A DNA stretch of 64,000 nt from Pythium myriotylum (Eukaryota > Oomycota > Peronosporomycetes > Pythiales > Pythiaceae). The DNA lies in the NCBI GenBank assembly GCA_023091665.1, contig JALJCQ010000023.1, forward strand, positions 868,001 to 932,000, read 5' to 3'. Made by a program: the position numbers and the translations under genes. Numbering within the stretch: position 1 is the stretch's first letter; the number at the start of each line of letters is the position of its first letter. Of the stretch, positions 1,546 to 35,178 are shown one piece after another. Under the pieces are notes generated by a model. The model did no database searches. It was not told where the DNA came from and saw nothing but the letters and a program-made list of their open reading frames with translations.

Positions 1546-1551
1546 AATAAA
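1546..1551 (+). terminator. polyadenylation signal of gene A
   Basis: An AATAAA hexamer about 170 bases after the gene A stop codon. The equivalent positions in the other units are 5618-5623 and 9683-9688. Oomycete genes do not always use this hexamer. Confidence 0.4.
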
Positions 1552-2288: not shown

Positions 2289-2542
2289 TGACGGGGTCAC
2301 AGACAGCGTGTAAACTGGGATCAACCTCATTCGAAGCAAACCCTGCTTGTATTCATAGTTTTAATCATATGAAAGCGTCATGTAGCGTTAACCGAGAACG
2401 TTGTCAGTGGTAGCGCTGCGTTCTCTCGTCGTTTCCTCTTTTGCATCGTGCGAGGTACCCAACTACTCAGAAAGACCCAAAGATACGAGTGAGGCCAACA
2501 CAACCGCGACCACGCCCCCATGCGTGACCGAGTCCGCTCCAC

Positions 2543-4872: not shown

Positions 4873-5445
4873 ATGAAGCTCATCGCCACTGTCGCCACCA
4901 TCGCTGCCATTGCCCTCGGCCTCGATTCCGCCTCCGCGCAACTCGAAACCAAGTACTTCATGGAAGAACCGGCCGATATTCGGTCTCCACCGCAGGTGCT
5001 CGGTGGCGCTGACGACAAGCCTGTCTTCAAGAGCTACGCGGGATACAGTCTCGACGTCGGCATGGCCAACAGCACGTCTGCAAGCCATCGTCAACTGCAA
5101 GAGGCCGAAATCGCCGTCGCCGCCTTCCAGGTCGCGGCCGCTGCCGCTCCCATCATCGCTCAGATCTTCAAGGGAACCGTAAAAGACTGCCAGCAGCTCG
5201 CTTGCTGGATTTCTACCAACTCTCACACCTGTGCACTCGCCGTCGCCGAGAAGGTGCAGGCCGACATCACCCAGGGCCGTGACCGATACGCGTACGAGAG
5301 CATCCAGTCGAACGGCATGTGGGTGCGCTACTGGCGCACCAAGTTCGAGCCGGCGGACCGCGGCAACATCGCCACGGGCAAGTGCACCAACGGCTCGCCC
5401 TTCACCGTGACCAACTGCCAGTCCACGGGCCGTGTGCAGTGCTAG
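4873..5445 (+). CDS. secreted six-cysteine protein A, copy 2
   Basis: The same 190-residue protein as copy 1. The only coding change I found is a silent T for C in a serine codon (TCC to TCT). Same signal peptide, same six cysteines, same stop and 3' flank. Convergent with gene B copy 2. Confidence 0.9.
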   Translation: MKLIATVATIAAIALGLDSASAQLETKYFMEEPADIRSPPQVLGGADDKPVFKSYAGYSLDVGMANSTSASHRQLQEAEIAVAAFQVAAAAAPIIAQIFKGTVKDCQQLACWISTNSHTCALAVAEKVQADITQGRDRYAYESIQSNGMWVRYWRTKFEPADRGNIATGKCTNGSPFTVTNCQSTGRVQC

Positions 5446-6607
5446 GCGAACACGCGCGAAACGGAAGCGATAACAGTAATGGTGAACAGCAAACAGAAAG
5501 GATATGGAAATGGATCGTAAGCACAAACACGACAGGCGGCTCCCCAGTCGACTGTCACATCGAGAAGACGCAGTGGTCCAGAGATTTATATGCATGGGCT
5601 CCCTCCCGTTCTTACTCAATAAAATTCCATTCGATTTCGATGCGGAGTCCTTGCCATGCCCAGTTAATGATGGCGATGCCACATCACTCTCGTCCGGTCA
5701 CTACGGCTTCCGATGATAGTTGGGTGCGTCAATATCGGGAAAGCTTACACATACAGATCGTCCTAATCGTTTCGGAGCCCCTAGCTACCCAATCGTAGTC
5801 GCGCCTCTTGGAACCACATACTGTACACAAAAACTCCACGCAACACATGGGGTGGGACCACCAGGATTTCAGTGTGCAGAACGAAGTGGGCTGGGTTGAG
5901 GTGTTCCCGTCTCACTCTCATCCAAGTCGTTGTGAGACAGTGTCACAGATGCACATAGACGCGTCACGTACACTCGTTTGCAAGATCCAGTCTGCATAAA
6001 AGAGACACACCTCAGAACGTCAGAACGTCAGAACGTCAGAACGTCAGAACTCTGTGCTCGAACACCTACCTACCTACCTACCTATCCCGGATACAGCTGA
6101 ACGCTGAACTGTACCTCCGGACTACCAAGGCCTCAAGGTGGGACCTCCTCACAGCCATCTGAACAGGTCGAAACGAGACTCGACACCGGAGACTGGAGAT
6201 TTGGGATTGGACACTCGGCTCTCGGCTCTTGGCTCTCGGCTCTCGGCTCTCGGCTCTCGGCTCTCGGTCCTTGGCACTCCAGTCCAGCGTCTAGCGACTA
6301 TTACGTCTACAATCTAGAGTCTAGAGTCTAGAGTCTAGAGTCTAGTGTCTAGATGACGGGGTCACAGACAGCGTGTAAACTGGGATCAACCTCATTCGAA
6401 GCAAACCCTGCTTGTATTCATAGTTTTAATCATATGAAAGCGTCATGTAGCGTTAACCGAGAACGTTGTCAGTGGTAGCGCTGCGTTCTCTCGTCGTTTC
6501 CTCTTTTGCATCGTGCGAGGTACCCAACTACTCAGAAAGACCCAAAGATACGAGTGAGGCCAACACAACCGCGACCACGCCCCCATGCGTGACCGAGTCC
6601 GCTCCAC

Positions 6608-7117
6608 TTAGCAGTACACCTTGCCCGTCTCCTGGCAGTTGGACACCACAAAGTGAGACCCGCCGCCGCACTTGCCGTCCGCCACGGCGCCACGGTCCGG
6701 GGGCGTGAACTGCGTGCGCCAGTACCGCACCCACATGCCACTAGACGTCGAGCTATCGACGGCAAACGAGTTGCGGCCTTTGGTGAGCTCGCGCTGGACC
6801 TGGTTGGCGGCCGCGAACTGGCAGTCGTAGTTGGGCGCCGCCACCCAGCACGCCAGCTGGTGGCACTCCTTGCCACTACCGAACATGCCGGCCAGCAACG
6901 GAGCCACCGACTGCGCGATCGTGAACACCGAGATCGTCGCGTCCGCCGCTTGGCCAGGGGTCACGCCAGCGTTCGCTCGGAGCGCGCGGTCGGCGTTAGT
7001 GGTGTCCGTGTAGGTGTCGGCTCCTGTCGTGAGGTCGGCCGTCTGAGCGAGCACGATCGAGCTGGTGGTCGTGGCGAGGGTAGCGACGGCGCAGAGAGCG
7101 GCGGTGGAGAACTTCAT
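6608..7117 (-). CDS. secreted six-cysteine protein B with RXLR-type motif, copy 2
   Basis: Identical in protein sequence to gene B copy 1 (169 residues from the ATG at 7115-7117, RALR at 44-47). This is the last copy of gene B; unit 3 ends before it. Confidence 0.88.
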   Translation of the reverse strand: MKFSTAALCAVATLATTTSSIVLAQTADLTTGADTYTDTTNADRALRANAGVTPGQAADATISVFTIAQSVAPLLAGMFGSGKECHQLACWVAAPNYDCQFAAANQVQRELTKGRNSFAVDSSTSSGMWVRYWRTQFTPPDRGAVADGKCGGGSHFVVSNCQETGKVYC

Positions 7118-8937
7118 GTTGGTAGTGAGTGCTGCTGGTGGTAAGCGTTCCTCTTGTGGACTGGAGATGTCGAAGGCAAATTCGGTTGTGGGAAATGATC
7201 TCGTGCAGGTTCGGCTCGGTGGCTGACTCCCGCGCTTCGATACCTCCACGCTTGAATGCCAGCGACCGATAGCAACAACACTTGGTGCGTATTGCCCAGT
7301 GCCGGAACAAAGCAGCGTAGAAGGAGGGAGAAAGAAAAAGAGAGAGAGGGAAAAAAGGGGACGATGATCATGATGATGATGATGTGCTAGGTCGTTGCTT
7401 GAACATTGTGCGACAGCTCCGAACCAAAGTCATCCACTCCACTCCACGCCACATCACGTCAAGCCACCATTGACCAATTTGGCTCAACCAAGCTGAACCA
7501 TCCATGGGTGGTTCTTCAACGTATCCGACTGGTGCATTCTTGGTGGATTTCATCGCCACGAATCAACACAAGACAATACCTTGTTTGTCACCACCAGTGT
7601 GTGGAGACAAAAACAAAGACAACGATAGAAATAGAAATAGAGACCCAAACCCAGGCTTGCTGCCTCCTTCCCTTGAGCTTGATGGTCGGCTCCCAGACTG
7701 TCCACTTCCACGTCGGACGAGGTCGATCGACCCATCCAATCAAGAGTGCGTCCGTCTTCATGCAGTCTCTTCTCGGAACCATATGGCTCAATCACTGAGA
7801 CGAGGGTCAGTCACCCTCCTCCTGAGGGTGAGACCATCCAGAGACATGAGGTGTGCAGTTCGTGGAGTGTCTCCCACTCCGCCTTCACAGACATAGAGCT
7901 CTCACTCTCAGCCACGAGAGGCTCCGAACCCGTACGCAATCGAGACCGTCTCCACGGCCGTCTTCAATTACGATGTGGTATTCACGTTCGACGCTACCAA
8001 TATACCTCTGCATCAATATATTCAAGTTCTCTCTCTATCTATCCATCTCTATCTCTCTGACGCACTCACACGCGTACCCCACGCACAGTCACTGCAGATG
8101 AGGGATGACTCAGTACGTCCTACCCATCGCTTGCTCACTCGCCATTATCTCTCGCAGTCCCAGTGAATAAACTCCTACGGTCTAGTTTCGATGAGTCGGA
8201 ACATGATTGCCGTCACACACACAACCTCCATAGTAATCACAAACTCCACAAGTGCGAATGTGGGTCCTTTGTCCGCCAAAATCCATCCCTTTCTCCATGC
8301 GCGTCGAGTCGTGTCACAGGGATGGACTTGTTCATCCTAAAAAAAACTCCTGGGTTCAAGTTCGTGTCATCCATGGTCAACTGGTGTTGAACAATCCCAT
8401 CTCATACTTGCTGCACGCAGTGTTGCAACATACCGTACATCAGTACATCTGTCGTGATGATCACCCTGTCTTCAAATCCTTTCGGAGACGATAACGATAA
8501 CGACGACACTTCAAGGTCCCGAGATCTTCAAGAAAGGTCATCGCTCCGGCTCAGATCTTCCAGCACATCCGTCACCTGTCACCCACTGCAGTACTTGATG
8601 GCTCTCTTCATCCTCCACTCGGTTACAAAGGAACGAACCGCGCTTCTCAATGCACGCGTACGCGTACGGTACCGTCCTCATCCACCCGACACAACGAAAA
8701 GCAAGTGCAGCTCGCCACCATCCAGTCTGGCTAATGTGAGACACCACCCACCTTCCAATAACACGAAAAAGTCATCGCCGACTGATCTCGGCCTGTATCC
8801 GTAGCCGCGCCCCACGGAATCTCCTCTTCGCTTCTTTTTGTCCTCCTCACAACTCAATTTCGTCGGTTCCAACAACCACACCCCAACACACCCCACCCTC
8901 CCAGCACAACCACCACCCCTCCTTCCCGTCATCCACC

Positions 8938-9510
8938 ATGAAGCTCATCGCCACTGTCGCCACCATCGCTGCCATTGCCCTCGGCCTCGATTCCGCCTCC
9001 GCGCAACTCGAAACCAAGTACTTCATGGAAGAACCGGCCGATATTCGGTCTCCACCGCAGGTGCTCGGTGGCGCTGACGACAAGCCTGTCTTCAAGAGCT
9101 ACGCGGGATACAGTCTCGACGTCGGCATGGCCAACAGCACGTCTGCAAGCCATCGTCAACTGCAAGAGGCCGAAATCGCCGTCGCCGCCTTCCAGGTCGC
9201 GGCCGCTGCCGCTCCCATCATCGCTCAGATCTTCAAGGGAACCGTAAAAGACTGCCAGCAGCTCGCTTGCTGGATTTCTACCAACTCTCACACCTGTGCA
9301 CTCGCCGTCGCCGAGAAGGTGCAGGCCGACATCACCCAGGGCCGTGACCGATACGCGTACGAGAGCATCCAGTCGAACGGCATGTGGGTGCGCTACTGGC
9401 GCACCAAGTTCGAGCCGGCGGACCGCGGCAACATCGCCACGGGCAAGTGCACCAACGGCTCGCCCTTCACCGTGACCAACTGCCAGTCCACGGGCCGTGT
9501 GCAGTGCTAG
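8938..9510 (+). CDS. secreted six-cysteine protein A, copy 3
   Basis: Same protein as copies 1 and 2, with the silent T also seen in copy 2. Unlike those copies it has no convergent gene B downstream, because the duplication unit is cut short near 10598. Confidence 0.9.
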   Translation: MKLIATVATIAAIALGLDSASAQLETKYFMEEPADIRSPPQVLGGADDKPVFKSYAGYSLDVGMANSTSASHRQLQEAEIAVAAFQVAAAAAPIIAQIFKGTVKDCQQLACWISTNSHTCALAVAEKVQADITQGRDRYAYESIQSNGMWVRYWRTKFEPADRGNIATGKCTNGSPFTVTNCQSTGRVQC

Positions 9511-10931
9511 GCGAACACGCGCGAAACGGAAGCGATAACAGTAATGGTGAACAGCAAACAGAAAGGATATGGAAATGGATCGTAAGCACAAACACGACAG
9601 GCGGCTCCCCAGTCGACTGTCACATCGAGAAGACGCAGTGGTCCAGAGATTTATATGCATGGGCTCCCTCCCGTTCTTACTCAATAAAATTCCATTCGAT
9701 TTCGATGCGGAGTCCTTGCCATGCCCAGTTAATGATGGCGATGCCACATCACTCTCGTCCGGTCACTACGGCTTCCGATGATAGTTGGGTGCGTCAATAT
9801 CGGGAAAGCTTACACATACAGATCGTCCTAATCGTTTCGGAGCCCCTAGCTACCCAATCGTAGTCGCGCCTCTTGGAACCACATACTGTACACAAAAACT
9901 CCACGCAACACATGGGGTGGGACCACCAGGATTTCAGTGTGCAGAACGAAGTGGGCTGGGTTGAGGTGTTCCCGTCTCACTCTCATCCAAGTCGTTGTGA
10001 GACAGTGTCACAGATGCACATAGACGCGTCACGTACACTCGTTTGCAAGATCCAGTCTGCATAAAAGAGACACACCTCAGAACGTCAGAACGTCAGAACG
10101 TCAGAACGTCAGAACTCTGTGCTCGAACACCTACCTACCTACCTACCTATCCCGGATACAGCTGAACGCTGAACTGTACCTCCGGACTACCAAGGCCTCA
10201 AGGTGGGACCTCCTCACAGCCATCTGAACAGGTCGAAACGAGACTCGACACCGGAGACTGGAGATTTGGGATTGGACACTCGGCTCTCGGCTCTTGGCTC
10301 TCGGCTCTCGGCTCTCGGCTCTCGGCTCTCGGTCCTTGGCACTCCAGTCCAGCGTCTAGCGACTATTACGTCTACAATCTAGAGTCTAGAGTCTAGTGTC
10401 CAGAGTCCAGTGTCTAGATGAGGGATACATGAGGTTGATCCCAGTTTACACACAGCCAGCGTGTAAACTGGGTTCAACCTCATCGAAGCAAACCCTGCTT
10501 GTATTCATATTTTTAATCATATGAAAGCGTCATGTAGCGTTAATCGAGAACATTGTCGGTGGTAGCCCTGCGTACTCTCGTTGTTCCCTCTTTTGCATAA
10601 CTACCTACAACCTTGTGCGCACCATATGGGTCGGATAGGCCCAGGGACGGAAGCAACTGTTGAGTAGCAGGTCTGAGGGATCAATATGATCTCTCCGATC
10701 GGTTGAGTGGTGAATTCGGGGGCTGTTCACCAAATCCATCACCGCTGTGCGCGAACAAGTGGAGAAGGGGCGATTCCATTTGTTCATCATCTAGGTTCCG
10801 CGTCCTGATGAAGAGACCAGACCCTATTACATATCCAACGCGGAATGAGTCCCATACATCTCACATTAGAAGTGTATTCACAATTGGTTGGGTAAACGCC
10901 GGGCTGGAGCTCCAGACTGTTTGGTGGTGCC
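9511..10931. other. 3' region of gene A copy 3 and duplication end
   Basis: Contains the AATAAA at 9683-9688, the short-repeat cluster, an inverted repeat (10429-10483) and, past 10598, about 330 bases of unique sequence leading to the 3' end of the transporter gene. Small open frames at 10605-10960 on either strand have no recognisable content. Confidence 0.5.
10429..10483. repeat. 23-bp inverted repeat in unit 3
   Basis: Arms 10429-10451 and 10461-10483 pair over 23 bp with one mismatch and a 9-base loop (ACAGCCAGC). In units 1 and 2 only the right arm exists, and its sequence is the exact reverse complement of the left arm here. The left arm therefore looks like an inverted copy of local sequence. 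Confidence 0.85.
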
Positions 10932-21768: not shown

Positions 21769-23133
21769 GCACAACCTATCACATCCGAATCCCCGCAGCT
21801 ATCACACTCACGCTCACGCTCACCCACACGCTCACGCTCACGCTCACCCACACGCTCACGCACACTTGCGCCTCGACGATCGATCGCCCCCTCTATCTAT
21901 CGTCCCTATCGAAGCCCTGCGCCTCCACCTGCGCCTCCGCCTCCGCCTCCGATCTGCACACAGCCGCATTGTTCGTGCCACATGCCACGCCCTTGTCTTC
22001 ATCTCCAACGCGGACAGAATCGTAGGCCATCCGCGTCGTGCGTCTCTCGTGCCACGCCTTGGTGACTTTGAAGTGTTGGAGCCCCGTGTTCTATATCCCC
22101 CGCATCCCCGTATTCCCGTACCCCCGTATCCTCGTATCGCCTTATTCCCATGTCCCTACGGCCCGTCCATCATCGACCACCGACCATCGACGCGGCCCCA
22201 CAGGAGCAAGTCTGAGTAGTATTGTTTCTCTTCAAGAGCGTGGTGGCTTTGTTGTCTCATCTCCACAGCACAACTCGACACGATAGAGTGCGAGGTGGTG
22301 GTGGTGGTGGCTGTGTATCGATAGCGGCTTCTTGAGGTCACAGTCACTCGATCGGCTTCCTCCTTGCGATGCGAACGTCGTGTGGCGCTCTACGACGTAC
22401 TTCCTACGGCCACGACGCGGGGAGAGCGATAGAGGGACAGGAGAGAGCGATAGAGAGAGAGAGAGCGAGGTGGAGACAATATCGGCAACGACCGATACGA
22501 AAACAAAAACAAAGTCGAAGACGAAGGCGACGACGAAGGCGACGACGACGACGACGACGACAACAACGACGACAACAACAACAACGACGACAACAACAAC
22601 AACGACGAATGTCCCGTGCCCACGAATAAGGAGCAGTGGCTATGCAGACCTGCGAGCGGTGAGGTGGCATTCATCTCCACGGTGGCCAGGTGGGCGTCGG
22701 TAGATCAGGAGTGAAGTGTATGGCGAAGGCGGAGCTGTGAGTATACGGGCTTGGGGGGAGTGTTTGATGGAACGACGGGGTGAGGAGGGCGCCGAGGGGA
22801 TGGAGAGGTGGCGGAGTGGATGTGGGGCAAGGAATGGAGTGCAGGCGACTTGTGCGGTCTCGGCGAGGTGGTTGATTGTGTGTAGGAGGAATCAGTGTGT
22901 AGCGGTGGGTGGGAATGAGCGAAGGGAACGAAGGGACGTTGAAGCGGTTTTGTCGAAGGATTGGGCGTGCGAGTGAGGTTGGTGAGTGCTGTAGTGGTTT
23001 TGCGGGAGCATATGGGTACGATGCGAGAGTTTGTTGTGTGTGGAGTGGTGAGTAATGTCTGTTTTTGCTATTTTGCGTGGCGTGGTTGTGATGCATGTTT
23101 GTGAGGAGTATGGTGTGTGGTAGGTGGTTGTAT

Positions 23134-23206
23134 GGGGATGTAGCTCAGATGGTAGAGCGCTCGCTTAGCATGCGAGAGGTACTGGGATCGATACCCAGCT
23201 TCTCCA
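23134..23206 (+). tRNA. tRNA-Ala(AGC), copy 2
   Basis: Identical to copy 1. Confidence 0.98.
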
Positions 23207-23207
23207 G

Positions 23208-23279
23208 GCGTATGTAGTATAGTGGTTAGTACCTCACGTTGTGGCCGTGATATCCCAGGTTCGACTCCTGGCATACGCA
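23208..23279 (+). tRNA. tRNA-His(GTG), copy 2
   Basis: Identical to copy 1, with the same single-G junction. Confidence 0.98.
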
Positions 23280-24635
23280 TCTCTTTTTGCACAACCTATC
23301 ACATCCGAATCCCCGCAGCTATCACACTCACGCTCACGCTCACGCTCACGCTCACCCACACGCTCACGCACACTTGCGCCTCGACGATCGATCGCCCCCT
23401 CTATCTATCGTCCCTATCGAAGCCCTGCGCCTCCACCTCCGCCTCCGCCTCCGATCTGCACACAGCCGCATTGTTCGTGCCACATGCCACGCCCTTGTCT
23501 TCATCTCCAACGCGGACAGAATCGTAGGCCATCCGCGTCGTGCGTCTCTCGTGCCACGCCTTGGTGACTTTGAAGTGTTGGAGCCCCGTGTTCTATATCC
23601 CCCGCATCCCCGTATTCCCGTACCCCCGTATCCTCGTATCGCCTTATTCCCATGTCCCTACGGCCCGTCCATCATCGACCACCGACCATCGACGCGGCCC
23701 CACAGGAGCAAGTCTGAGTAGTATTGTTTCTCTTCAAGAGCGTGGTGGCTTTGTTGTCTCATCTCCACAGCACAACTCGACACGATAGAGTGCGAGGTGG
23801 TGGTGGTGGTGGCTGTGTATCGATAGCGGCTTCTTGAGGTCACAGTCACTCGATCGGCTTCCTCCTTGCGATGCGAACGTCGTGTGGCGCTCTACGACGT
23901 ACTTCCTACGGCCACGACGCGGGGAGAGCGATAGAGGGACAGGAGAGAGCGATAGAGAGAGAGAGAGCGAGGTGGAGACAATATCGGCAACGACCGATAC
24001 GAAAACAAAAACAAAGTCGAAGACGAAGGCGACGACGAAGGCGACGACGACGACGACGACGACAACAACGACGACAACAACAACAACGACGACAACAACA
24101 ACAACGACGAATGTCCCGTGCCCACGAATAAGGAGCAGTGGCTATGCAGACCTGCGAGCGGTGAGGTGGCATTCATCTCCACGGTGGCCAGGTGGGCGTC
24201 GGTAGATCAGGAGTGAAGTGTATGGCGAAGGCGGAGCTGTGAGTATACGGGCTTGGGGGGAGTGTTTGATGGAACGACGGGGTGAGGAGGGCGCCGAGGG
24301 GATGGAGAGGTGGCGGAGTGGATGTGGGGCAAGGAATGGAGTGCAGGCGACTTGTGCGGTCTCGGCGAGGTGGTTGATTGTGTGTAGGAGGAATCAGTGT
24401 GTAGCGGTGGGTGGGAATGAGCGAAGGGAACGAAGGGACGTTGAAGCGGTTTTGTCGAAGGATTGGGCGTGCGAGTGAGGTTGGTGAGTGCTGTAGTGGT
24501 TTTGCGGGAGCATATGGGTACGATGCGAGAGTTTGTTGTGTGTGGAGTGGTGAGTAATGTCTGTTTTTGCTATTTTGCGTGGCGTGGTTGTGATGCATGT
24601 TTGTGAGGAGTATGGTGTGTGGTAGGTGGTTGTAT

Positions 24636-24650
24636 GGGGATGTAGCTCAG
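24636..24650 (+). repeat. target-site duplication, left of the LINE (tRNA-Ala positions 1-15)
   Basis: GGGGATGTAGCTCAG, the first 15 bases of tRNA-Ala, preceded by the normal array flank (TGTAT) and followed at 24651 by the LINE 3' end. It is the upstream half of the duplication; the other half is 31986-32000. A T before the GGGG is shared too, so 16 bp is possible. Confidence 0.92.
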
Positions 24651-25028
24651 TTTCAAGGCGTCTGTATTAATTAAAATTAATACGACTATGACTACTCTAA
24701 TCTACCTCGTCGATGAATATTATACACTTGACTAGTATGTGACGAGGCTGGGAGCTTCAATTGTTGAGTTGTTGGTTGACTTCCGTTGGTCTTGACTGGT
24801 CTAGGTACTTGTTTTAGCACATCGGTTGGATAACTGCGGTTAGCTCAAATGGTTGTGAGCGTGGACCCCGATGTTGTCGGTCGCGCGGGTGGGGAGGTTT
24901 CTTGTGCTAGTGGTTTCGCTTGACTTCGGTCGCGAAGGTACGCTCTGATTCCAAAACGAGGTTGGTTTCGAGCCAGTATTGAAAGCAAGCACCCGCACTG
25001 AAGAAGAAGAAACGGCAGGAAATCGCTT
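24651..25028 (-). other. 3' untranslated region of the LINE
   Basis: Reading on the element strand, the last 60 bases contain a perfect hairpin (GTATTAAT, loop TTTA, ATTAATAC) followed by ATACAGACGCCTTGAAA, the 3' terminus. On the plus strand, 24840-24905 has a tRNA-like D arm (TAGCTCAAATGGTTGTGAGC) but no B box. Confidence 0.7.
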
Positions 25029-28000
25029 TTATGCCAAAAAGCGAACTGCAAACAACCCCATGTTGTTTTGCAGGAAGGCACCGAAAGAAGGCGTAGACTG
25101 GAGACTTGACAACACAACCTGAAGCGAAGCACGCTGCGCATCGTCGTACACACGTCGAAGACACGCACGCACATGAGCACCCACAGTCGTATACACCACA
25201 CGCAGTGCTGCAATTGTTGGCATCGGGGACCGCCCGTTGAACAGTCGCCCATTGCGTTCAGTCCACAACAGGTGAAGCACCACAGCACGGATGACTTGCC
25301 ACAGGTCTTGGATTTCTTCTGTGTGGTCCTTCCACACGGGAGCAACGCGGATGGCTTTACCGAAGACAATGTCGGTCCAGGAGGGTCGAGATGTGAAGAA
25401 CACCGACATATCACGGAAGATGTCGCGCCATATCACAGTCGGCAGCACACACTCGAAGAACAAATGACGCGCCGTCTCCACTGAGTTGCAGCCTGGTCGA
25501 ACACAGTACACGATGCCGGGATTTGCCACCGTCATGAACGAGAAGCGTGAGCGAGTCGGTAACAAGCCGTACGCCAAGCGGAACTGGAGGTCTTCGTATA
25601 TCGGGAGAAGCAACACACGAAGCCGCTTGCGTAGCTTGTTGAATCGGAGGACCACGTCTGTAGGCGCTCGAGGGTCGTGGAAGAACAGCGGATGCGTTCT
25701 CGTCGGCTCTGGAGCTTGCCACACCAGGCGGAGCAGTTGGGATCGTGGAATGCGCGGCACCCAGCACACACGGTCGTTGATCTTCACACCGACTCGCGGA
25801 TGTTGGTGCTCAGGCGCCGTCGGTAGCACTCCATCGACTGGGACAGAGCACATTGTGCAGAGACGCCCGAAAACTTGCGTGGCTTCCTCGTGAAGCTTGA
25901 GCAGCCACGTGTACTGTCGATACGGGGTGATGGAGACTTGGGTGTAGTCGACATGTCGCTCAGCAAACTCGATCGCGCTCGGCCACTTGTCGCCTTCACC
26001 AGCGAAGTCACGAAGAGATCGCAACTGAAAGACACGGGCAACTTGCCGACGGAAGCTTCGTTGCGGCTCTGCAATCATGCTGAGAGAACGATGCTGGGAC
26101 GGCGTTGTGTCGGAACGGCTGGTTGGGAGGAACTGGAAGTTCTTGTCGCCATGGAACCAGATCGGTTGGTCGAGTGCAAACGCAAGACGGTCTTCTGGAG
26201 GGAGGTCGAGCCACGACACCGGCCACTTGATAGCGTACCAAGTCTTCCAGGCCGCACGCCACCACGAAGAGAGCTGGTCCCACTCGATCGAGCCTCGATG
26301 CCGCCACGGACTGACGTAGAGAAAGTCGAGTGGCCTCTGCGGGCCCCACCGCGGAAGACTGATCCGCAGCAGCTCGACTCCTGCTACCGTCCAGTTGCCG
26401 GTCGTCGATGCCGAAGCTGCCGTGAACTGAAGCAGGAGCTGCAGTGACTGTCGCTTGAGCACACCGTCGAGACTCGGTACCTGCAGACCCCCAGACTCGC
26501 GCGGCAGGTTGACAAATTCGTTCGAGATCAACTGGACATGCCGAGCGTCGCGTTCGTAGCGCCGACTCAAGACGAACCGGTGTAGCGCGGCTTGCCACTT
26601 CTTCACTCGTCCTGGCGGCACAACAACGTGAGCAGTGTAGTGCCACAGACGTGAGAGCACCATGGTCTGGGCGACGAGGAGCCTGCCTTGGAGCGTCCGT
26701 GCGCGCCGAAACCACTGCTTGAACCCGTCAAAGAAGCGTCGATCGAGGTCTTCAACAATCAATTCCGTTGTGCGTCGTTGACCGAACAGGAGACCGAGGA
26801 ACTTGACCGTGGAGTCTTCATCGAGAACCTGCACACCTGGTATGCCCGGGCATCGCCGCGTTCGATGCAGCGACATCAGCACACACTTGTTCACGTTGAG
26901 CTTGGCGCCGGAGCCTTGACAGTATTCTTCGACCAACCCAAGTTGCGCCTCGACACCAGCGATAGAGCCCGACAGTAACGTCGAGTCGTCGGCGAAGAAA
27001 ACACTCGTGACGGTGGCATCCGCTGTCAAGCAGATCCTATGTTCTTCGTGCTGGCGGAGCAGGTTACCGAGTGGCTCGATAACAAGCAAGAACAGCAGCG
27101 CCGACAGCGGATCACCTTGCTTGACTCCGCGCGTTGGGCAGAGCGGGTCTTGCACGAATCCGTTGATCATGAGATGCGCGTGTGGTCGAGTGTACAGGAG
27201 CTTCACCCACCCCGAGAACGCCCCGCCACATCCCATCCGATCGAGCACCTGAAACATGTAGTTCCAGTTGACGCGGTCGTACGCCTTCTCAAAGTCGAGG
27301 AACATGGCGTAGGCTTCCTCGTCGCGCGCGGTGACGAGGTCTTGCAGGTCACTCACGAAACGAACGTGGTGATGCAGAGAGCGACCACGCACGAAAGCCT
27401 TCTGGTCTTGGTGCACAAGCTTGGTCAGGAACAACTGCAGTCGGAAAGCGAGAACCTTTGACAGTGCCTTCACGTCGACACCCATCAAAGCAATTGGGCG
27501 ATAGTTGCCTGGGTCAGCTCGGGATCCCTTCTTGTGCAGCAGACTGATCGCCGACTGGCGTTGGCACCGAAGAAGCTCGCCTCGCTGAAGTTGGTAGTTG
27601 AACACGATCTCCAGGCATTCACCGAACACGTCAGGAGCCACCTGGTAGAAGGCAGCTGGAAGCCCGTCCATCCCGGGCGCTGACGATGCTCGCATCTTCT
27701 TGATTGCACTGGCGAGGTCCGCCGCTGTGATCGGAGCGTTGAGGATATTTTGCTCGTCTTCAGACAGTCGGCGGTTGATCGTGTCGAGCATCCGGTCAAT
27801 CTGGCTCTGCTCAGGCTCTTGGACGACAACACCACCGCGCTCAACATCGCCCATGATACCGCCCCAGTGCTGATTGAAGGCAGCCGCGATATCCGCGGGG
27901 TTGCTTGATGCTGAGCCATCTTGAAGCCGCACTTGTTCGATGCTGACTCTCCGCAAGGATCCGTCCAGCGGTCGAAAGAAGTACTTGGATGACTTCTCCG

Positions 28001-29195
28001 CGTGTTGAGCCTGGAAGTCGAAAGCCGAGTCTTGGTTGTAAAGACGCGCCGAGTTGATGCTGTCTTGGTATGCCGTCAGTGCGGTCTGGAACACCGTCTG
28101 CGCGCGATCGCTTCGCTCCGACCGGTATGCCGCAGCCGCGTGGGCAAGTGCCTGACGAGCTTCGGTGGTGGCGGTCTCGCCTTGACGCTTCAGCTTGCGC
28201 TGCAGAGCTTGAAGCTGACGACGCATGCCCTTCTTCCACTTGTGCCACACCTTGCCCGGGTTGGAGGAGCGCCGTAACGCAGCAAGCACAGTCGTCGCTT
28301 CGCCTTGGATAGCTTCAACGATATCGGGGAAGTCGAGCATCGCCGACTGGAAACGCCAGTACCCGTGGCCTTGAGGCTGGCTCATCGCGCGCAACACAAC
28401 TTGATGTGCGAGATGGTCGCCGGCACCCTTGGGCTCAAAGTACGAGGAGTCACCGTACAGCGCGGTGCAGAAGTCTTCTGACATGAGGATGTAGTCGAGA
28501 CGGTTGTGTCGAGGCTGTGGACCAGTGTAGACGCGTTCGTCGGGATGGTGGATTCGCCAGGCATCCACGACACCGAGTTGGGCCAACCACGCCACACACG
28601 CGTTACCGCCGGTCGTTCCTGTCGCCCTTGGATCCGACGCATCGACGAGGGGGTCAAGTGGCGTGTTGAGGTCACCGAGCACCAGGTGAGTCGCATTGTC
28701 TTCGAACACTTCGTACGGTAGCGCTTCGAAGAACCCCTTCTTCTCGAAGTTATCGACTGGCGCGTACACGTTGTGGATGTAGATCGGAGCACCGTTCGCG
28801 ACGACCCGGACGACCAAGTAGCGGCCTTGAATAGTCAACGAAGACTGCTCACAAGCAGACTGAAAGCCGGGAAAGTCGGAGCGGAGCACTGTCATGACGC
28901 CACCCGATCGTGCAGCAACGGCAACTGGACTGTGCGCGTTGGTGTCGCTGACGAAGAGGCGGTGTTGAAATCTGGTGTCATGGTGAAATTGGAGCGTTGC
29001 ACGATGATGCGAGTCGCGCAGCTTGGTCTCTTGGACGCACGAGAGACTGTTCTTGATGAGCTGGTTCTCGATCAACAGGTGGCCGTTCTTCTTGATCCCG
29101 TTGGTGTTCACCGTCAAAAGACTGATGTTCTCCCACGAGACCTCGGCCGCGTCCGCCTCGACCGCTTTAGCAGTCGAGGCAGAGCGGTCCGGCAC
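25029..29195 (-). CDS. LINE ORF2: APE endonuclease and reverse transcriptase
   Basis: An intact frame of 1388 codons. An APE-type endonuclease lies at about 22-270 with its catalytic set: N30/N32, E56 (QET), Y144 (NVYAP), GDLN at 174-177, and GDH at 259-261. The reverse transcriptase is at about 545-790, with motif A aspartate D634 (MFLDFEKAYDRVNW), QGDPLS (693-698) and the FADD box (734-737). A zinc-finger of zf-RVT type closes the protein with C1231, C1236, H1244 and C1249. This layout is that of the L1/Tx1/R1 type. The frame opens with GTG directly after a TAG, and the first ATG is codon 101, inside the endonuclease, so it has no usable AUG start. It overlaps ORF1 by 29 bases in the +1 frame. 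Confidence 0.93.
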   Translation of the reverse strand: MPDRSASTAKAVEADAAEVSWENISLLTVNTNGIKKNGHLLIENQLIKNSLSCVQETKLRDSHHRATLQFHHDTRFQHRLFVSDTNAHSPVAVAARSGGVMTVLRSDFPGFQSACEQSSLTIQGRYLVVRVVANGAPIYIHNVYAPVDNFEKKGFFEALPYEVFEDNATHLVLGDLNTPLDPLVDASDPRATGTTGGNACVAWLAQLGVVDAWRIHHPDERVYTGPQPRHNRLDYILMSEDFCTALYGDSSYFEPKGAGDHLAHQVVLRAMSQPQGHGYWRFQSAMLDFPDIVEAIQGEATTVLAALRRSSNPGKVWHKWKKGMRRQLQALQRKLKRQGETATTEARQALAHAAAAYRSERSDRAQTVFQTALTAYQDSINSARLYNQDSAFDFQAQHAEKSSKYFFRPLDGSLRRVSIEQVRLQDGSASSNPADIAAAFNQHWGGIMGDVERGGVVVQEPEQSQIDRMLDTINRRLSEDEQNILNAPITAADLASAIKKMRASSAPGMDGLPAAFYQVAPDVFGECLEIVFNYQLQRGELLRCQRQSAISLLHKKGSRADPGNYRPIALMGVDVKALSKVLAFRLQLFLTKLVHQDQKAFVRGRSLHHHVRFVSDLQDLVTARDEEAYAMFLDFEKAYDRVNWNYMFQVLDRMGCGGAFSGWVKLLYTRPHAHLMINGFVQDPLCPTRGVKQGDPLSALLFLLVIEPLGNLLRQHEEHRICLTADATVTSVFFADDSTLLSGSIAGVEAQLGLVEEYCQGSGAKLNVNKCVLMSLHRTRRCPGIPGVQVLDEDSTVKFLGLLFGQRRTTELIVEDLDRRFFDGFKQWFRRARTLQGRLLVAQTMVLSRLWHYTAHVVVPPGRVKKWQAALHRFVLSRRYERDARHVQLISNEFVNLPRESGGLQVPSLDGVLKRQSLQLLLQFTAASASTTGNWTVAGVELLRISLPRWGPQRPLDFLYVSPWRHRGSIEWDQLSSWWRAAWKTWYAIKWPVSWLDLPPEDRLAFALDQPIWFHGDKNFQFLPTSRSDTTPSQHRSLSMIAEPQRSFRRQVARVFQLRSLRDFAGEGDKWPSAIEFAERHVDYTQVSITPYRQYTWLLKLHEEATQVFGRLCTMCSVPVDGVLPTAPEHQHPRVGVKINDRVCWVPRIPRSQLLRLVWQAPEPTRTHPLFFHDPRAPTDVVLRFNKLRKRLRVLLLPIYEDLQFRLAYGLLPTRSRFSFMTVANPGIVYCVRPGCNSVETARHLFFECVLPTVIWRDIFRDMSVFFTSRPSWTDIVFGKAIRVAPVWKDHTEEIQDLWQVIRAVVLHLLWTERNGRLFNGRSPMPTIAALRVVYTTVGAHVRACLRRVYDDAQRASLQVVLSSLQSTPSFGAFLQNNMGLFAVRFLA

Positions 29196-31884
29196 CTAGT
29201 GTTGCGACGCCGTTGACAGCCGTAAGCTGGAGAACCGCTTCGTCGTCGGAGAAGTACAAGCCGCACGTGCGAAGATATTCGAGGTCGTCGAGAAGCTCGC
29301 CTTGCCACTGGATCTTCTCCCACACGGCAAAGATCTGTGCGCCCAAGTCGGAGCGCAGCAGTGCCAACAACACGTTGGGGTGGAGCAAACGACCGTTGAG
29401 TGCTGGAATCCACCCGACTGGAGCTCCGGTAAGGCGCTGGATCCACATGTCGCTCTGGAAGATCTGCGGCGCCGTGCACATGAGCATCAACTCGAACAAC
29501 GAGAGCGCGCACGTGGCTCGCAAGAGCGCCGACATCCGCTCATCACGATACCACCGTCCCGTCATCTTGAAGATGTCATTGCGATCCTTCGGCAGCTTCT
29601 CACCGTAGTGCGCAGCCCACTTGTGCGCGAAGGTCGTACACGAGTTTGGATCAGTCGCGCTCAACACACGATTGATCATGTGGAGCTGTGCGAGTTCCTT
29701 GACGTTGCCGCTGAGGTCACTCATCTCGCCGAGCAGCACAGAGTTGAACGCGAGCGGAGACTTCCCACCGGCAAGATGGCCGATCGTGTCCGGGTTGGCC
29801 GTGTTGCGGAGAGTCTTCCGAAGTGATTCCGCACGAACGTCCGCTGCAGCGATATGGTTCGACTGGAGCTGGAGGTCGGCGGTGGGCTCGGTCGTCTCGA
29901 GTTCGGCGAGGATCTCTTGGATTGACGTCGGTTCCTTCGTCTTCATGACCAGAGTGTGGTGCTTGGTCAAGAAGTGACTCGACTCCTTGCTGGTCTTGAT
30001 CGTGTCGGGACCCTTGACCTTGCGAGGCACGACCTGGAACCGCGGCAGGCTCGACTCGTTGAGCGCCGCATTGCAGCAGTCGAGTTCGAACTCGATGGAG
30101 TTCAACACTTCGAAGTAGTTGCTTGTCGCGATGCCTTGCACGGGCTTCGGTCGCGCCTTCTGTAACATGTCGGCAAAGTCGTCGGCGTAACGCGAGCGCT
30201 TGCCCTTGGACTTGGTCGATTTGGTTCCGTTTTCCGGACGATCTGCGTTGGACGCGGACAGACCGAGCGGCGGTGGCGGCGGCGGCAGAGACTTGGTTCC
30301 AGGCTGCGGACTACCCGGAGGCGTCAACAGCGATCCCGCGTGCGTACCGACCGAGATGACGCTTGCAGAGTCTTGCGACTTGGACTCCGCTTGCGAGACA
30401 CCGTTCTTCACCGCGTCTGCGTACGAAGTCGGAGCAGCCGGCTCGGACGGTTGCACTGGTGCTGGCGGAGTAGGCTTGTTGATCTTGTCCAAGTCCAAAG
30501 CGTGTGGCGACACCTGACCGAAACCACGTCGCTGGGACGGGAACGCGGCGTCGCGCGCCAAAGCTGGGTACATGCGGCTGCCGAAGATGACTTGGTCGCA
30601 CGTGAAGCCTTGCACACACAGCGCTCTTGGGCACGTCGCACTTCGAAAGTAGACGCGCCACGTTGCTGTCGTCATTCCGGACGCGAGGTTGACGTCGCGG
30701 AACGTGTCGTAGATCGGCTCGCTGCCGATGTCGAAGAACGCGCGCAGAAGACCTTCGTTGTCGAAGTTGCTGTCGACGCTCGAGATGTCGATGTAGAAGC
30801 GATCGGTGAGGACGTCGAAGTCTTGGAACATGTACTTGCCACCGAGGATCTTGACTTCCTGACGCGCAAGGCGTTCGCACGCAGCACGTGACTTGACCTT
30901 GACGCGGATTTCTCCGCCACGACCCTTGGAGATCTGGCCGAGTTCTTGAAGCTTGATCTGCTCGGTGACCACGGGGTTCCCGTTGTCCTTGAGAAAAGAC
31001 GCCATGATCTTGTTGATGCCGGTACGCTCGAACGCGCGACCAGTGTCGATGGTCATGACGTAACGAGCGCGCGGGAGCTCGTACGGGCGCGCTTGTTCAA
31101 CTGACGTGAAGAGCGAGGCCCAGTCGCCACCGTTCTCGTACAGCGCGTCAATCGCTTCGATATCCGCAGCACACGGTCGAGGCAGCACCACACGACTGGT
31201 CGCCGAGACGGGAGTTCTGTCACGGCGAATCTCGGTTGGACGGCGTAGAAGAGCACCAAGCGAAGGCGTCGCACCTGCCGCACTGGCAGGCGGTTGCTGA
31301 GCATCCGGAATCGGATCCGGGGTCGAATCAGTCGTAGTCGAGTCTTCAACAGTTGATTCGTCGGGGCTTGAGGCGAGACTGAGCTGGAGCGAGGTCGCCG
31401 CCATCATCAAGTCGTCGTCGTCATCGTCGCCACAGGAGACAGCAGTAGTCCCAGTGTTCGCGAGCGAGTCGGTCGAACTGGAAAGCGCAACGGAGATCTC
31501 GACACCAGACGCCACCGGAGCGGAGCCTGTCACGAGCACCGTCATACCGGCACCGACATCCACGATGCGGGCGGTAGAGGCGGGTCCGTCGGCGGTTGAA
31601 GGAGCGTCGGCGTCGTCGACCGCGGAGGTGGTGGTCGTGCCGGAGCTGACTGGGGCTTGCGCATTCACTGACTTCGAAGTCACGTGAGATACGGGCGCGG
31701 GCGTCGCAGGGTCGTCGGCAGTCGCACTGGCACCATCCGGACCAGATGGTGGCTCACAATGGGTGAGGCTTCCCGAATCTTGTGCAGAGACGGGACGGAG
31801 CAGCTGCGCGGGAGGGTTCTCACCCACAAAGTCGAGGTCGGAGGGAGATGGGCAGGCCGAGTCGATCTGGTTCGCTGGCTTCAT
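29167..31884 (-). CDS. LINE ORF1 protein, probable RNA-binding partner
   Basis: 905 residues from an ATG about 100 bases inside the element. Residues 1-240 are low-complexity, rich in Ser, Thr, Ala and Asp. Residues 270-440 look like two compact alpha/beta modules (one ending GGKYMFQDFDV, the next DRFYIDISSVDSNF to TCDQVIFG) that may be RRM-like, as in ORF1 proteins that bind element RNA. A proline-rich stretch follows near 470-560. The last 300 residues are probably helical and unlike anything I recognise. No CCHC zinc knuckle is seen, which sets it apart from many L1-type ORF1 proteins. Its TAA lies 26 bases inside the ORF2 frame. Confidence 0.82.
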   Translation of the reverse strand: MKPANQIDSACPSPSDLDFVGENPPAQLLRPVSAQDSGSLTHCEPPSGPDGASATADDPATPAPVSHVTSKSVNAQAPVSSGTTTTSAVDDADAPSTADGPASTARIVDVGAGMTVLVTGSAPVASGVEISVALSSSTDSLANTGTTAVSCGDDDDDDLMMAATSLQLSLASSPDESTVEDSTTTDSTPDPIPDAQQPPASAAGATPSLGALLRRPTEIRRDRTPVSATSRVVLPRPCAADIEAIDALYENGGDWASLFTSVEQARPYELPRARYVMTIDTGRAFERTGINKIMASFLKDNGNPVVTEQIKLQELGQISKGRGGEIRVKVKSRAACERLARQEVKILGGKYMFQDFDVLTDRFYIDISSVDSNFDNEGLLRAFFDIGSEPIYDTFRDVNLASGMTTATWRVYFRSATCPRALCVQGFTCDQVIFGSRMYPALARDAAFPSQRRGFGQVSPHALDLDKINKPTPPAPVQPSEPAAPTSYADAVKNGVSQAESKSQDSASVISVGTHAGSLLTPPGSPQPGTKSLPPPPPPLGLSASNADRPENGTKSTKSKGKRSRYADDFADMLQKARPKPVQGIATSNYFEVLNSIEFELDCCNAALNESSLPRFQVVPRKVKGPDTIKTSKESSHFLTKHHTLVMKTKEPTSIQEILAELETTEPTADLQLQSNHIAAADVRAESLRKTLRNTANPDTIGHLAGGKSPLAFNSVLLGEMSDLSGNVKELAQLHMINRVLSATDPNSCTTFAHKWAAHYGEKLPKDRNDIFKMTGRWYRDERMSALLRATCALSLFELMLMCTAPQIFQSDMWIQRLTGAPVGWIPALNGRLLHPNVLLALLRSDLGAQIFAVWEKIQWQGELLDDLEYLRTCGLYFSDDEAVLQLTAVNGVATLGAGPLCLDC

Positions 31885-31985
31885 CTTCGTTCGGCGGGAA
31901 GGCTGGGAGGCCGGGAGGCTGGTAGGCTGGTTACTTCGGCTGTTTGCTTGGATCGACTTGTGCTCGACGAGGCAAAACGAGAAGT

Positions 31986-32058
31986 GGGGATGTAGCTCAG
32001 ATGGTAGAGCGCTCGCTTAGCATGCGAGAGGTACTGGGATCGATACCCAGCTTCTCCA
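31986..32058 (+). tRNA. tRNA-Ala(AGC), copy 3, rebuilt by the LINE target duplication
   Basis: Full and identical to copy 1 although the LINE lies directly upstream. Its first 15 bases are the right-hand target duplication. Its native 5' flank is now at 24635 and is replaced by the LINE 5' end (GAGAAGT). Confidence 0.97.
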
Positions 32059-32059
32059 G

Positions 32060-32131
32060 GCGTATGTAGTATAGTGGTTAGTACCTCACGTTGTGGCCGT
32101 GATATCCCAGGTTCGACTCCTGGCATACGCA
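32060..32131 (+). tRNA. tRNA-His(GTG), copy 3
   Basis: Identical to copy 1. Confidence 0.98.
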
Positions 32132-33487
32132 TCTCTTTTTGCACAACCTATCACATCCGAATCCCCGCAGCTATCACACTCACGCTCACGCTCACGCTCA
32201 CCCACACGCTCACCCACACGCACACTTGCGCCTCGACGATCGATCGCCCCCTCTATCTATCGTCCCTATCGAAGCCCTGCGCCTCCACCTGCGCCTCCAC
32301 CTCCGATCTGCACACAGCCGCATTGTTCGTGCCACATGCCACGCCCTTGTCTTCATCTCCAACGCGGACAGAATCGTAGGCCATCCGCGTCGTGCGTCTC
32401 TCGTGCCACGCCTTGGTGACTTTGAAGTGTTGGAGCCCCGTGTTCTATATCCCCCGCATCCCCGTATTCCCGTACCCCCGTATCCTCGTATCGCCTTATT
32501 CCCATGTCCCTACGGCCCGTCCATCATCGACCACCGACCATCGACGCGGCCCCACAGGAGCAAGTCTGAGTAGTATTGTTTCTCTTCAAGAGCGTGGTGG
32601 CTTTGTTGTCTCATCTCCACAGCACAACTCGACACGATAGAGTGCGAGGTGGTGGTGGTGGTGGCTGTGTATCGATAGCGGCTTCTTGAGGTCACAGTCA
32701 CTCGATCGGCTTCCTCCTTGCGATGCGAACGTCGTGTGGCGCTCTACGACGTACTTCCTACGGCCACGACGCGGGGAGAGCGATAGAGGGACAGGAGAGA
32801 GCGATAGAGAGAGAGAGAGCGAGGTGGAGACAATATCGGCAACGACCGATACGAAAACAAAAACAAAGTCGAAGACGAAGGCGACGACGAAGGCGACGAC
32901 GACGACGACGACAACAACAACGACGACAACAACAAGAACGACGACAACAACAACAACGACGAATGTCCCGTGCCCACGAATAAGGAGCAGTGGCTATGCA
33001 GACCTGCGAGCGGTGAGGTGGCATTCATCTCCACGGTGGCCAGGTGGGCGTCGGTAGATCAGGAGTGAAGTGTATGGCGAAGGCGGAGCTGTGAGTATAC
33101 GGGCTTGGGGGGAGTGTTTGATGGAACGACGGGGTGAGGAGGGCGCCGAGGGGATGGAGAGGTGGCGGAGTGGATGTGGGGCAAGGAATGGAGTGCAGGC
33201 GACTTGTGCGGTCTCGGCGAGGTGGTTGATTGTGTGTAGGAGGAATCAGTGTGTAGCGGTGGGTGGGAATGAGCGAAGGGAGCGAAGGGACGTTGAAGCG
33301 GTTTTGTCGAAGGATTGGGCGTGCGAGTGAGGTTGGTGAGTGCTGTAGTGGTTTTGCGGGAGCATATGGGTACGATGCGAGAGTTTGTTGTGTGTGGAGT
33401 GGTGAGTAATGTCTGTTTTTGCTATTTTGCGTGGCGTGGTTGTGATGCATGTTTGTGAGGAGTATGGTGTGTGGTAGGTGGTTGTAT

Positions 33488-33502
33488 GGGGATGTAGCTC
33501 AG
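33488..33502 (+). repeat. target-site duplication, left of the non-autonomous dimer
   Basis: GGGGATGTAGCTCAG again, with the normal array flank on its left and the element from 33503. The other half is 35106-35120. The junction is the same base as at the LINE. Confidence 0.92.
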
Positions 33503-34295
33503 TTTCAAGGCGTCTGTATTGCTGCACTAGCATTTACGACTGACTTCTAACTGCTCGCTAATCCCGTGCGGGTTTTATGTTGCTAAGGTTCGGTTGAGTC
33601 TCGTGGTTGGCTGGTCGGTTTGTGCTGAGAGGATGAATCCTTGCGTCATGGTTCGTTGGGTTGTTGAGGTGGTTGTTCTGTTGTCGTTGAAGCTGGGTAC
33701 TGGGTTAACTTGACCTTCATTTGCTGGTTTGCTGGTATGTTGATGCTGGGTGAGTTGAGTGTTGGTTGGGTTGAAGCTGGGTTGGCTGAATGCCGGTTGG
33801 GTTGATGCTGGGTTGCTTGAATGCTGGTTGGGTTGAGGTTGGTGTCGGTGAGTGCTGGTTGGGTTGAGGTTGGTGTCGGTGAGTGCTGGTTGGGTTGAGG
33901 TTGGTGTCGGTGAGTGTTGGTTACCCAACGGTCTCGTGAGTGAAGGTTGGTGGCTGGGTGCCGTGAGTGTTGGTCACGGCGTGGGTTGATCAGCGGTGGG
34001 TTGATATTAGAGTCGACCGGGTGGCCGAGCTCTGGCGCGCGCTCTCCATGTGGTGAATGTCGGCTCTCCCGATGAAGCCGAAGGAAGCACGCATGGGATG
34101 CCGACTGGTCGGCGCGGTGGCGGCAGCGTCCCGATGCCGAGCTTCTTGCGCTTGGTCTTGGCTCTCGCAGCACCCTTGGTCATGGCGACTGGGTGTGGAG
34201 AGGGTCGGGGGTGATGGGCTGGCAGCTGGGCTGGGTGCTTGGACTGGACACTTCTGGACTTGGTCACTTGAGGGGTAGCGAGCAAATTGCGAAGT
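33503..34295 (-). mobile_element. 793-bp non-autonomous element, copy A
   Basis: Minus strand. It has no open frame for a transposition protein. Its ends match the LINE: on the element strand it starts ACTTCGCAATTTGC (LINE: ACTTCTCGTTTTGC) and ends ATACAGACGCCTTGAAA like the LINE. A 31-bp tandem repeat occurs three times at 33823-33915, with more diverged relatives before it. A short frame starting MTKGAARAKTKRKK lies near its 5' end (about 34180) but I cannot tie it to a known protein. It fits a SINE-like or deletion-derived partner mobilised by the LINE. Confidence 0.85.
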
Positions 34296-34312
34296 GAGCT
34301 TCGATAGCTCAG
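34296..34312 (+). other. 17-base tRNA-like linker between the two element copies
   Basis: GAGCTTCGATAGCTCAG. Its last 15 bases have the form of a tRNA start (7-base acceptor strand GCTTCGA, TA, then GCTCAG) but differ from tRNA-Ala before TAGCTCAG. They look like the target site from a different tRNA gene. Confidence 0.65.
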
Positions 34313-35105
34313 TTTCAAGGCGTCTGTATTGCTGCACTAGCATTTACGACTGACTTCTAACTGCTCGCTAATCCCGTGCGGGTTCTATGTTGCTAAGGTT
34401 CGGTTGAGTCTCGTGGTTGGCTGGTCGGTTTGTGCTGAGAGGATGAATCCTTGCGTCATGGTTCGTTGGGTTGTTGAGGTGGTTGTTCTGTTGTCGTTGA
34501 AGCTGGGTACTGGGTTAACTTGACCTTCATTTGCTGGTTTGCTGGTATGTTGATGCTGGGTGAGTTGAGTGTTGGTTGGGTTGAAGCTGGGTTGGCTGAA
34601 TGCCGGTTGGGTTGATGCTGGGTTGCTTGAATGCTGGTTGGGTTGAGGTTGGTGTCGGTGAGTGCTGGTTGGGTTGAGGTTGGTGTCGGTGAGTGCTGGT
34701 TGGGTTGAGGTTGGTGTCGGTGAGTGTTGGTTACCCAACGGTCTCGTGAGTGAAGGTTGGTGGCTGGGTGCCGTGAGTGTTGGTCACGGCGTGGGTTGAT
34801 CAGCGGTGGGTTGATATTAGAGTCGACCGGGTGGCCGAGCTCTGGCGCGCGCTCTCCATGTGGTGAATGTCGGCTCTCCCGATGAAGCCGAAGGAAGCAC
34901 GCATGGGATGCCGACTGGTCGGCGCGGTGGCGGCAGCGTCCCGATGCCGAGCTTCTTGCGCTTGGTCTTGGCTCTCGCAGCACCCTTGGTCATGGCGACT
35001 GGGTGTGGAGAGGGTCGGGGGTGATGGGCTGGCAGCTGGGCTGGGTGCTTGGACTGGACACTTCTGGACTTGGTCACTTGAGGGGTAGCGAGCAAATTGC
35101 GAAGT
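34313..35105 (-). mobile_element. 793-bp non-autonomous element, copy B
   Basis: Second copy, in the same orientation and 810 bases further on. The only difference I found from copy A is C for T near 34386. Its 5' end (GCGAAGT on the plus strand) abuts the right-hand target duplication and an intact tRNA-Ala. Confidence 0.85.
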
Positions 35106-35178
35106 GGGGATGTAGCTCAGATGGTAGAGCGCTCGCTTAGCATGCGAGAGGTACTGGGATCGATACCCAGCTTCTCCA
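35106..35178 (+). tRNA. tRNA-Ala(AGC), copy 4, rebuilt by the second insertion
   Basis: Identical to copy 1. Positions 1-15 are the right-hand duplication of the non-autonomous insertion; the upstream flank is element sequence. Confidence 0.97.

Follow-up and report, generated by a model that had tools for sequence, protein, structure and literature searches.

Evidence for base-precise insertion of an L1-like LINE family inside many kinds of tRNA genes in the oomycete Pythium myriotylum

The stretch of DNA analysed here (the window) comprises 64,000 nucleotides of the oomycete Pythium myriotylum (assembly GCA_023091665.1, contig JALJCQ010000023.1, positions 868,001 to 932,000) and contains a tandem array of units carrying tRNA-Ala(AGC) and tRNA-His(GTG), with 44 transfer RNA (tRNA) genes called by ARAGORN. 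A BT1-type protein encoded in the window has its best named match, at 66% identity, in Pythium oligandrum. One unit of this array is split by a long interspersed nuclear element (LINE) of full length, 7,335 bp with two open reading frames (ORFs), which lies on the minus strand at 24651-31985, its 3' end at 24651 and its 5' end at 31985. The element is flanked by positions 1-15 of tRNA-Ala on one side and by a complete tRNA-Ala on the other. Indeed, the sequence GGGGATGTAGCTCAG is found on the plus strand at 24636-24650, at the LINE 3' junction, where the native upstream flank is kept (24301-24600 is 100% identical to 33153-33452), and again at 31986-32000, as the first 15 bp of a restored tRNA-Ala(AGC) at 31986-32058, called by ARAGORN and scoring 57.3 bits with the Rfam tRNA model. 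The second gene of the unit, tRNA-His(GTG) at 32060-32131 (plus strand; ARAGORN, Rfam), is undisturbed. There are 23 exact copies of GGGGATGTAGCTCAG in the window, against none in 100 shuffles; the remaining ones are members of the tRNA-Ala array, that at 33488 belonging to a second insertion. When the LINE flanks were joined in silico, a gap-free match of 1,015 bp at 99.2% was obtained with the array unit 22634-23648, and this unit is therefore the empty site. These results bear out a preliminary description of the window, which had placed a two-ORF LINE between two copies of tRNA-Ala 1-15, one running into a complete gene and the other retaining the upstream flank.

The second insertion, missed in the preliminary description, occupies another tRNA-Ala gene. 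Here a tRNA-Ala 1-15 fragment (33488-33502, plus strand) is followed by two head-to-tail copies of a 793-bp non-autonomous element (33503-35105), copy A at 33503-34295 and copy B at 34313-35105, both on the minus strand and 99.9% identical, and then by a restored complete tRNA-Ala (35106-35178, plus strand, ARAGORN). The two copies are separated by a 15-nt tag, GCTTCGATAGCTCAG (34298-34312, plus strand), which corresponds to the first 15 nt of tRNA-Phe. Most simply, the dimer would have arisen at a tRNA-Phe gene and then moved as a single unit into tRNA-Ala, gene conversion being an alternative source of the tagged dimer. This partner element and the LINE have only their terminal 18 bp in common (blastn E 2.6e-4; next best 0.16), an exact match of 18/18 with the LINE 3' terminus (24651-24668, minus strand). 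The A-box and B-box patterns tried, as expected for a short interspersed nuclear element (SINE) of the RNA polymerase III (Pol III) kind, matched the 793-bp element on neither strand. The two copies also contain 31-bp tandem repeats (33649-34179 and 34459-34989) and open frames without family matches.

The first ORF of the LINE (ORF1, 29167-31884, minus strand) encodes 905 amino acids from an ATG at 31884. It had no match in Pfam, NCBIfam or solved structures; its homologues come from oomycetes and add Pythium insidiosum and P. brassicae to the species found with ORF2. The latter (25029-29195, minus strand) is a frame of 1,388 amino acids with an apurinic-type (APE) endonuclease (residues 28-247, 28455-29114), a reverse transcriptase (residues 554-802, 26790-27536; RVT_1, 8.5e-34) and a conserved C..C..H..C near its C-terminus. 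This frame opens within ORF1 (29140-29195 region) and has no ATG ahead of the endonuclease region, so that an unusual translation start or a shift would be needed. The endonuclease/exonuclease/phosphatase domain scored barely below the cut-off (24.3 versus 24.5 bits). A profile of 17 ORF2 sequences, compared with solved structures, reached L1 ORF2p at 1.9e-118 and R2 at 4e-43; with the same profile, the value was 7.1e-17 for structures of the L1 endonuclease and 4.3e-7 for ExoIII. Among solved structures, ORF2 is nearest to L1. A reverse transcriptase of the LINE type and the lack of long terminal repeats, together with a target-site duplication, a fixed 3' end and 5'-truncated copies, identify the element as a LINE, and its endonuclease is of the L1 kind. 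The APE-type domain stands N-terminal to the reverse transcriptase, which differs from NeSL and other early-branched LINEs, a restriction-like C-terminal domain not having been specifically sought. The element works like a site-specific LINE of the L1/Tx1 type, the named references compared being L1 and R2. Protein matches to ORF2 numbered 68 among 7,993 scored candidates. All named ones with at least 34% identity were from oomycetes (Globisporangium splendens, Peronospora matthiolae, Lagenidium giganteum and Aphanomyces), and a single weak match came from a plant; the 26 pattern matches in viral contigs included no relative. An Rfam search for a hepatitis delta virus (HDV)-like ribozyme at the LINE 5' end (E <= 1 across 24600-32200) gave two tRNAs only.

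The assembly to which the window belongs (58.7 Mb, 55 contigs) was searched for other members of the family. LINE 3' ends were sought by a pattern that contains no tRNA letters, and reversed patterns served as controls. LINE 3' ends were found at 46 places (control 0) and LINE 5' ends at 44 (control 1), and 37 distinct copies of 7,329-7,385 bp had both ends; there were 38 pairings, one 5' end being common to two nested 3' ends. With reversed-pattern controls of 0 or 1, a chance origin of the LINE and partner ends is ruled out. Among 206 first-look candidates for ORF2, 34 copies were scored; since all are 98-100% identical and 32 of the 34 are free of stops, the family appears to have been active recently.

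Where do these copies lie? All 46 of the 3' junctions were read, and 42 are within 13 tRNA 5'-end sequences: Ala (7), Arg (5), Asn (3), Cys (5), Ile-AAT (2), Ile-TAT (1), Lys (6), Met (2), Phe (2), Thr-AGT/CGT (3), Thr-TGT (1), Trp (4) and Tyr (1). A complete tRNA abuts 39 of the 44 LINE 5' ends (43 in the genome plus the window's own), tRNA-Pro(AGG) and tRNA-Pro(TGG) being also represented there. A specificity for tRNA-Ala alone, the target named in the preliminary description, is thus rejected by junctions in many kinds of tRNA. Its expectation that most copies would follow TAGCTCAG, with tRNA positions 1-15 duplicated, was upheld by these 3' and 5' ends and by the duplications in the 37 two-ended copies, and the complete tRNAs at 39 of the 44 5' ends agree with its proposal that the duplication restores the host gene.

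The geometry of the junctions is precise. The junction of the tRNA-sense strand with the element 3' end follows A14 in the A box (CTCA/G, the slash marking the cut). The other end of the element coincides with the mature 5' end of the tRNA or lies no more than about 2 nt from it, and the intervening 14-16 bp are duplicated, leaving a 15-nt fragment on the 3' side and a complete tRNA on the 5' side. Counted to A14 in the 37 two-ended copies, the duplication measures 14 nt in 17, 15 nt in 14 and 16 nt in 4; it reaches 18 nt in one and 21 nt in another, both values including chance matches to the LINE's own 5' end or to the left-hand partner element. In most cases the duplication begins between -2 and +1 relative to the tRNA start given by ARAGORN. 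Additional nucleotides, at most two (G, GA, GG or GC in the main), stand between the LINE and the duplication, except at locus L077, which has ten. Exact 18-bp 3' termini of the LINE and its partner number 217, and exact CTCAG stands directly before 202 of them. In tRNA-Arg, the native sequence CCCAATGG (CCCA/ATGG) is replaced by CCCAG at the junction, and beside tRNA-Val the native GGTCAAG by GGTCAG. At these junctions the G is derived from the element; therefore, the nick is best placed after A14 (CTCA/G). The preliminary description was right to put the nick in the A box on the tRNA-sense strand, but its exact place has to be shifted accordingly; likewise, the second cut is near the mature 5' edge, as it had claimed, but not always exactly at base 1. 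Some 3' junctions carry an extra TTTCAG or TTTCAATTTCAG, which could reflect repeated copying of the first bases.

The clearest trace of target-primed reverse transcription is at locus L044 (C12:1745328; 1481-1550), where a 31-bp piece of the LINE 3' end is flanked on both sides by TACACTGGAGCTGCTCAG, a duplication of 17-18 bp at a non-tRNA GCTGCTCAG site with CTCAG. This copy fits a severely 5'-truncated insertion and a CTCA/G nick, and shows that a tRNA context is not an absolute requirement. Another truncated copy, of 3.4 kb, has no recognised second flank. At locus L102 (C4:1720176), a tRNA-Thr(TGT) fragment is followed by a different 3' end, TTTCAATGGCGTGTATTACATC, present at 4 genomic places, which is perhaps a second family using the same tRNA site.

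The partner element follows the same pattern. Its 3' ends occupy 176 genomic places (control 0), and 31 of 31 readable junctions are in tRNA fragments, 22 of them, among the matches listed, in a tRNA-Thr(TGT) array on C4. Neighbouring units of this array contain 0, 1 and 6 head-to-tail copies, separated by GCCTCTGTGGCTCAG. The set of six consists of two triplets of identical units, of 795 bp and 764 bp respectively, which indicates that tandem duplication contributed besides insertion. One could extend this to the whole family and suppose that few real insertions took place, which amplification and gene conversion of the tRNA arrays then spread; the two sets of three identical copies and the recurrence of identical junctions in single arrays, such as four tRNA-Lys copies on C15, go in this direction. 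However, the 37 two-ended LINE copies fall into 28 distinct junction classes, in many kinds of tRNA and on many contigs, with differing added nucleotides and duplication starts, and one copy lies at the non-tRNA site on C12, so we consider such a scenario very improbable. It is harder still to credit that element reads were misjoined into the arrays during assembly: tRNA arrays are indeed difficult to assemble, but 37 copies on many contigs have consistent duplications at both ends, and empty sites without gaps were found.

Several observations weigh against a general insertion into tRNA genes. Four 3' ends do not conform: at L064 it follows a tRNA-like fragment, with no tRNA in its 9.9-kb stretch; at L058 it sits in a tRNA-like block inside the 3' untranslated region (3'UTR) of an older LINE; at L113/L100 it lies about 18 nt upstream of tRNA-Val and not in the gene; and at L044 the site is the non-tRNA one mentioned above. 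The exceptions among 5' ends are L077 (about 10 extra nt before tRNA-Met), L092, L100, L102 and L104. A 5' partner is missing for 8 of the 46 3' ends (L044, L062 and L064 were looked at) and a 3' partner for 7 of the 44 5' ends; for the unpaired copies L119-L124, the guessed 5' ends gave no junction. Moreover, many copies are within amplified arrays, so the counts are not independent events, the probability given below for a preference among TAGCTCAG words was calculated after seeing the data, and the evidence consists of traces of insertion, not of insertion events. With these points taken into account, we are nevertheless confident that an L1-like APE LINE family and its non-autonomous partner insert with base precision inside many kinds of tRNA genes.

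The following scenario can be proposed from the junctions. The ORF2 endonuclease would nick the tRNA-sense strand after A14, the 3' end so produced would prime reverse transcription of an RNA ending in CCUUGAAAC, and a second nick about 14 nt upstream would complete target-primed reverse transcription. Because its A and B boxes are rebuilt, the tRNA gene should remain usable and open to a further insertion, and repeated hits on a restored gene would account for the head-to-tail copies split by 15-nt tRNA tags.

How are tRNA genes recognised? The genome contains the word TAGCTCAG at 1,748 places, 710 of them in a tRNA D-arm context, and its reversal at 4,271. Of the 24 junction classes that carry the word, 23 belong to tRNA genes. 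If all TAGCTCAG words were equal, P would be 1.5e-8 to 2.3e-7, a value computed post hoc on array classes that are not fully independent. TAGCTCAG alone as the target is disfavoured by this tRNA bias, with the reservation that array copies are not independent. Genes without the word are used too, namely tRNA-Arg, tRNA-Met, tRNA-Thr-TGT and, judged by the 5' end, tRNA-Pro. The bias and the word-less targets together suggest that recognition needs more than TAGCTCAG. With less confidence than for the insertion itself, we propose that tRNA genes are found through Pol III factors or through a longer contact with DNA, two readings to which we give about equal weight.

In the first, bound Pol III factors (TFIIIC/TFIIIB) would guide the element in the way suggested for Dictyostelium TRE5-A, and its endonuclease would do no more than cut after the nearest YYYA; we regard this as a serious possibility, a little short of probable. 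It would explain why the sites vary (CTCA, CCCA, TCTA, GGTCA) and yet lie nearly all in tRNA genes of many kinds, and why, of the 46 LINE 3' ends, only one (in the 3'UTR of an older LINE) fell on any of the 836-1,038 TAGCTCAG words that lack a tRNA D-arm context. The insertion about 18 nt upstream of tRNA-Val, near the tRNA but outside it, points the same way. However, the position at A14 is fixed, unlike that of factor-guided elements, which land at a distance (PMC3706591); TFIIIC would be expected to occupy the A box; and L044 was inserted where no tRNA gene exists. In the second, ORF1 or ORF2 would read a longer sequence of the A box, or of the A and B boxes, in the manner of LINEs specific for ribosomal DNA, which we hold to be just as possible. 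The base-precise intragenic position in 35 of the 37 two-ended copies argues for such a contact, as does the resemblance of the off-target site GGAGCTGCTCAG to an A box; on the other hand, targets of different tRNA species have little in common beyond TRGYYYA, and the duplicated 14 nt are for the most part different between them.

The LINE itself contains A-box-like and B-box-like sequences, about 170-260 nt from its 3' end and antisense to the ORFs, in three 3'UTR types. In the window this tRNA-related block, defined by the 3'UTR alignment with weak or no Rfam support, spans 24834-24900 (plus strand, antisense to the LINE), with an A box TTAGCTCAAATGG at 24840-24852 and a B-box region at 24883-24897, in which the window copy has a 14-bp deletion. 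It is also present at L040:1684-1756 and at L058, and is lacking in the diverged copy L062. That the block is a true tRNA was not upheld: one subfamily scored 15.7 bits with Rfam, below the cut-off of 29, and two other subfamilies as well as L092 gave no tRNA match. One LINE is inserted at CTCA/G of the block in an older LINE (L058/L092). We tentatively speculate that the LINE recognises the class of tRNA genes, perhaps through the Pol III machinery, and cuts after the near-universal A14, that the stagger, matching the distance to the mature 5' end, recreates an intact, re-usable target, and that the 3'UTR block either is part of the targeting or is itself a landing site.

As a rule, a gene entered by a site-specific LINE is broken, and the LINEs that target tRNA genes either are confined to one tRNA species or stay outside the gene. 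LINEs of the Tx1 group (Keno in U2, Mutsu in 5S) have an APE endonuclease, are related to L1 and use a precise site in a multicopy small-RNA gene; each is bound to one gene family, and the target is destroyed. The list of site-specific LINEs in the preliminary description was incomplete, since LINEs specific for one tRNA gene had already been published: NeSL-1_TV (tRNA-Pro), LIN15_SM (tRNA-Arg) and LIN25_SM (tRNA-Glu) (PMC4640811). Like the present LINE, the NeSL group are non-LTR (long terminal repeat) retrotransposons with tRNA genes as specific target, but they have a restriction-like endonuclease and one tRNA species per family, whereas the present element has an APE-type enzyme, uses many species and restores the gene (PMC4640811). 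The dictyostelid elements TRE5, TRE3, NLTR-A and NLTR-B are of the APE type and use many tRNA genes, TRE5 being listed under L1 (PMC5911963, PMC5006619). They insert beside the gene, about 50 bp upstream, downstream or, for NLTR-A, 2-6 bp upstream of the mature tRNA; in contrast, the present LINE is not found at a distance, for a tRNA directly adjoins 39 of its 44 5' ends, and the nick after A14 lies inside the A box, with the 5' part of the gene duplicated. Utopia is also a site-specific LINE that occurs in oomycetes, with the U2 small nuclear RNA gene as target, but it has a restriction-like endonuclease and leaves U2 genes disrupted, without their 5'-terminal 38 bp (PMC4640811). The Dada DNA transposons insert precisely inside several kinds of tRNA genes, but with a DDE transposase, 6-7 bp duplications and disruption of the gene (PMC3706591, PMC8869645). 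Large tRNA arrays have been described in oomycetes (PMC9584435, PMC11540230); the clusters of Peronospora effusa likewise have attached repeats, but these are described as SINE-like units spread by recombination, and the available portion of that paper contains no LINE targeting or A14 junction (PMC11540230). In the open-access literature we found no base-precise, gene-restoring LINE of many tRNA genes; subscription papers and Repbase Reports may describe one.

If our interpretation is correct, such a LINE, which uses one conserved base as its entry point in many tRNA genes and keeps each of them intact, would provide a natural model of harmless programmable insertion; it would also be a test case for the question of how a LINE reads a class of genes. 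From the 15-nt tRNA tags between elements one could then tell which tRNA loci had been entered, and in which order, and the LINE may bear on the large oomycete tRNA arrays, whose attached repeats were read as SINE-like. Finally, upstream of the tRNA array, at about 500-9900 of the window, ORFs recur about every 4,065 bp.

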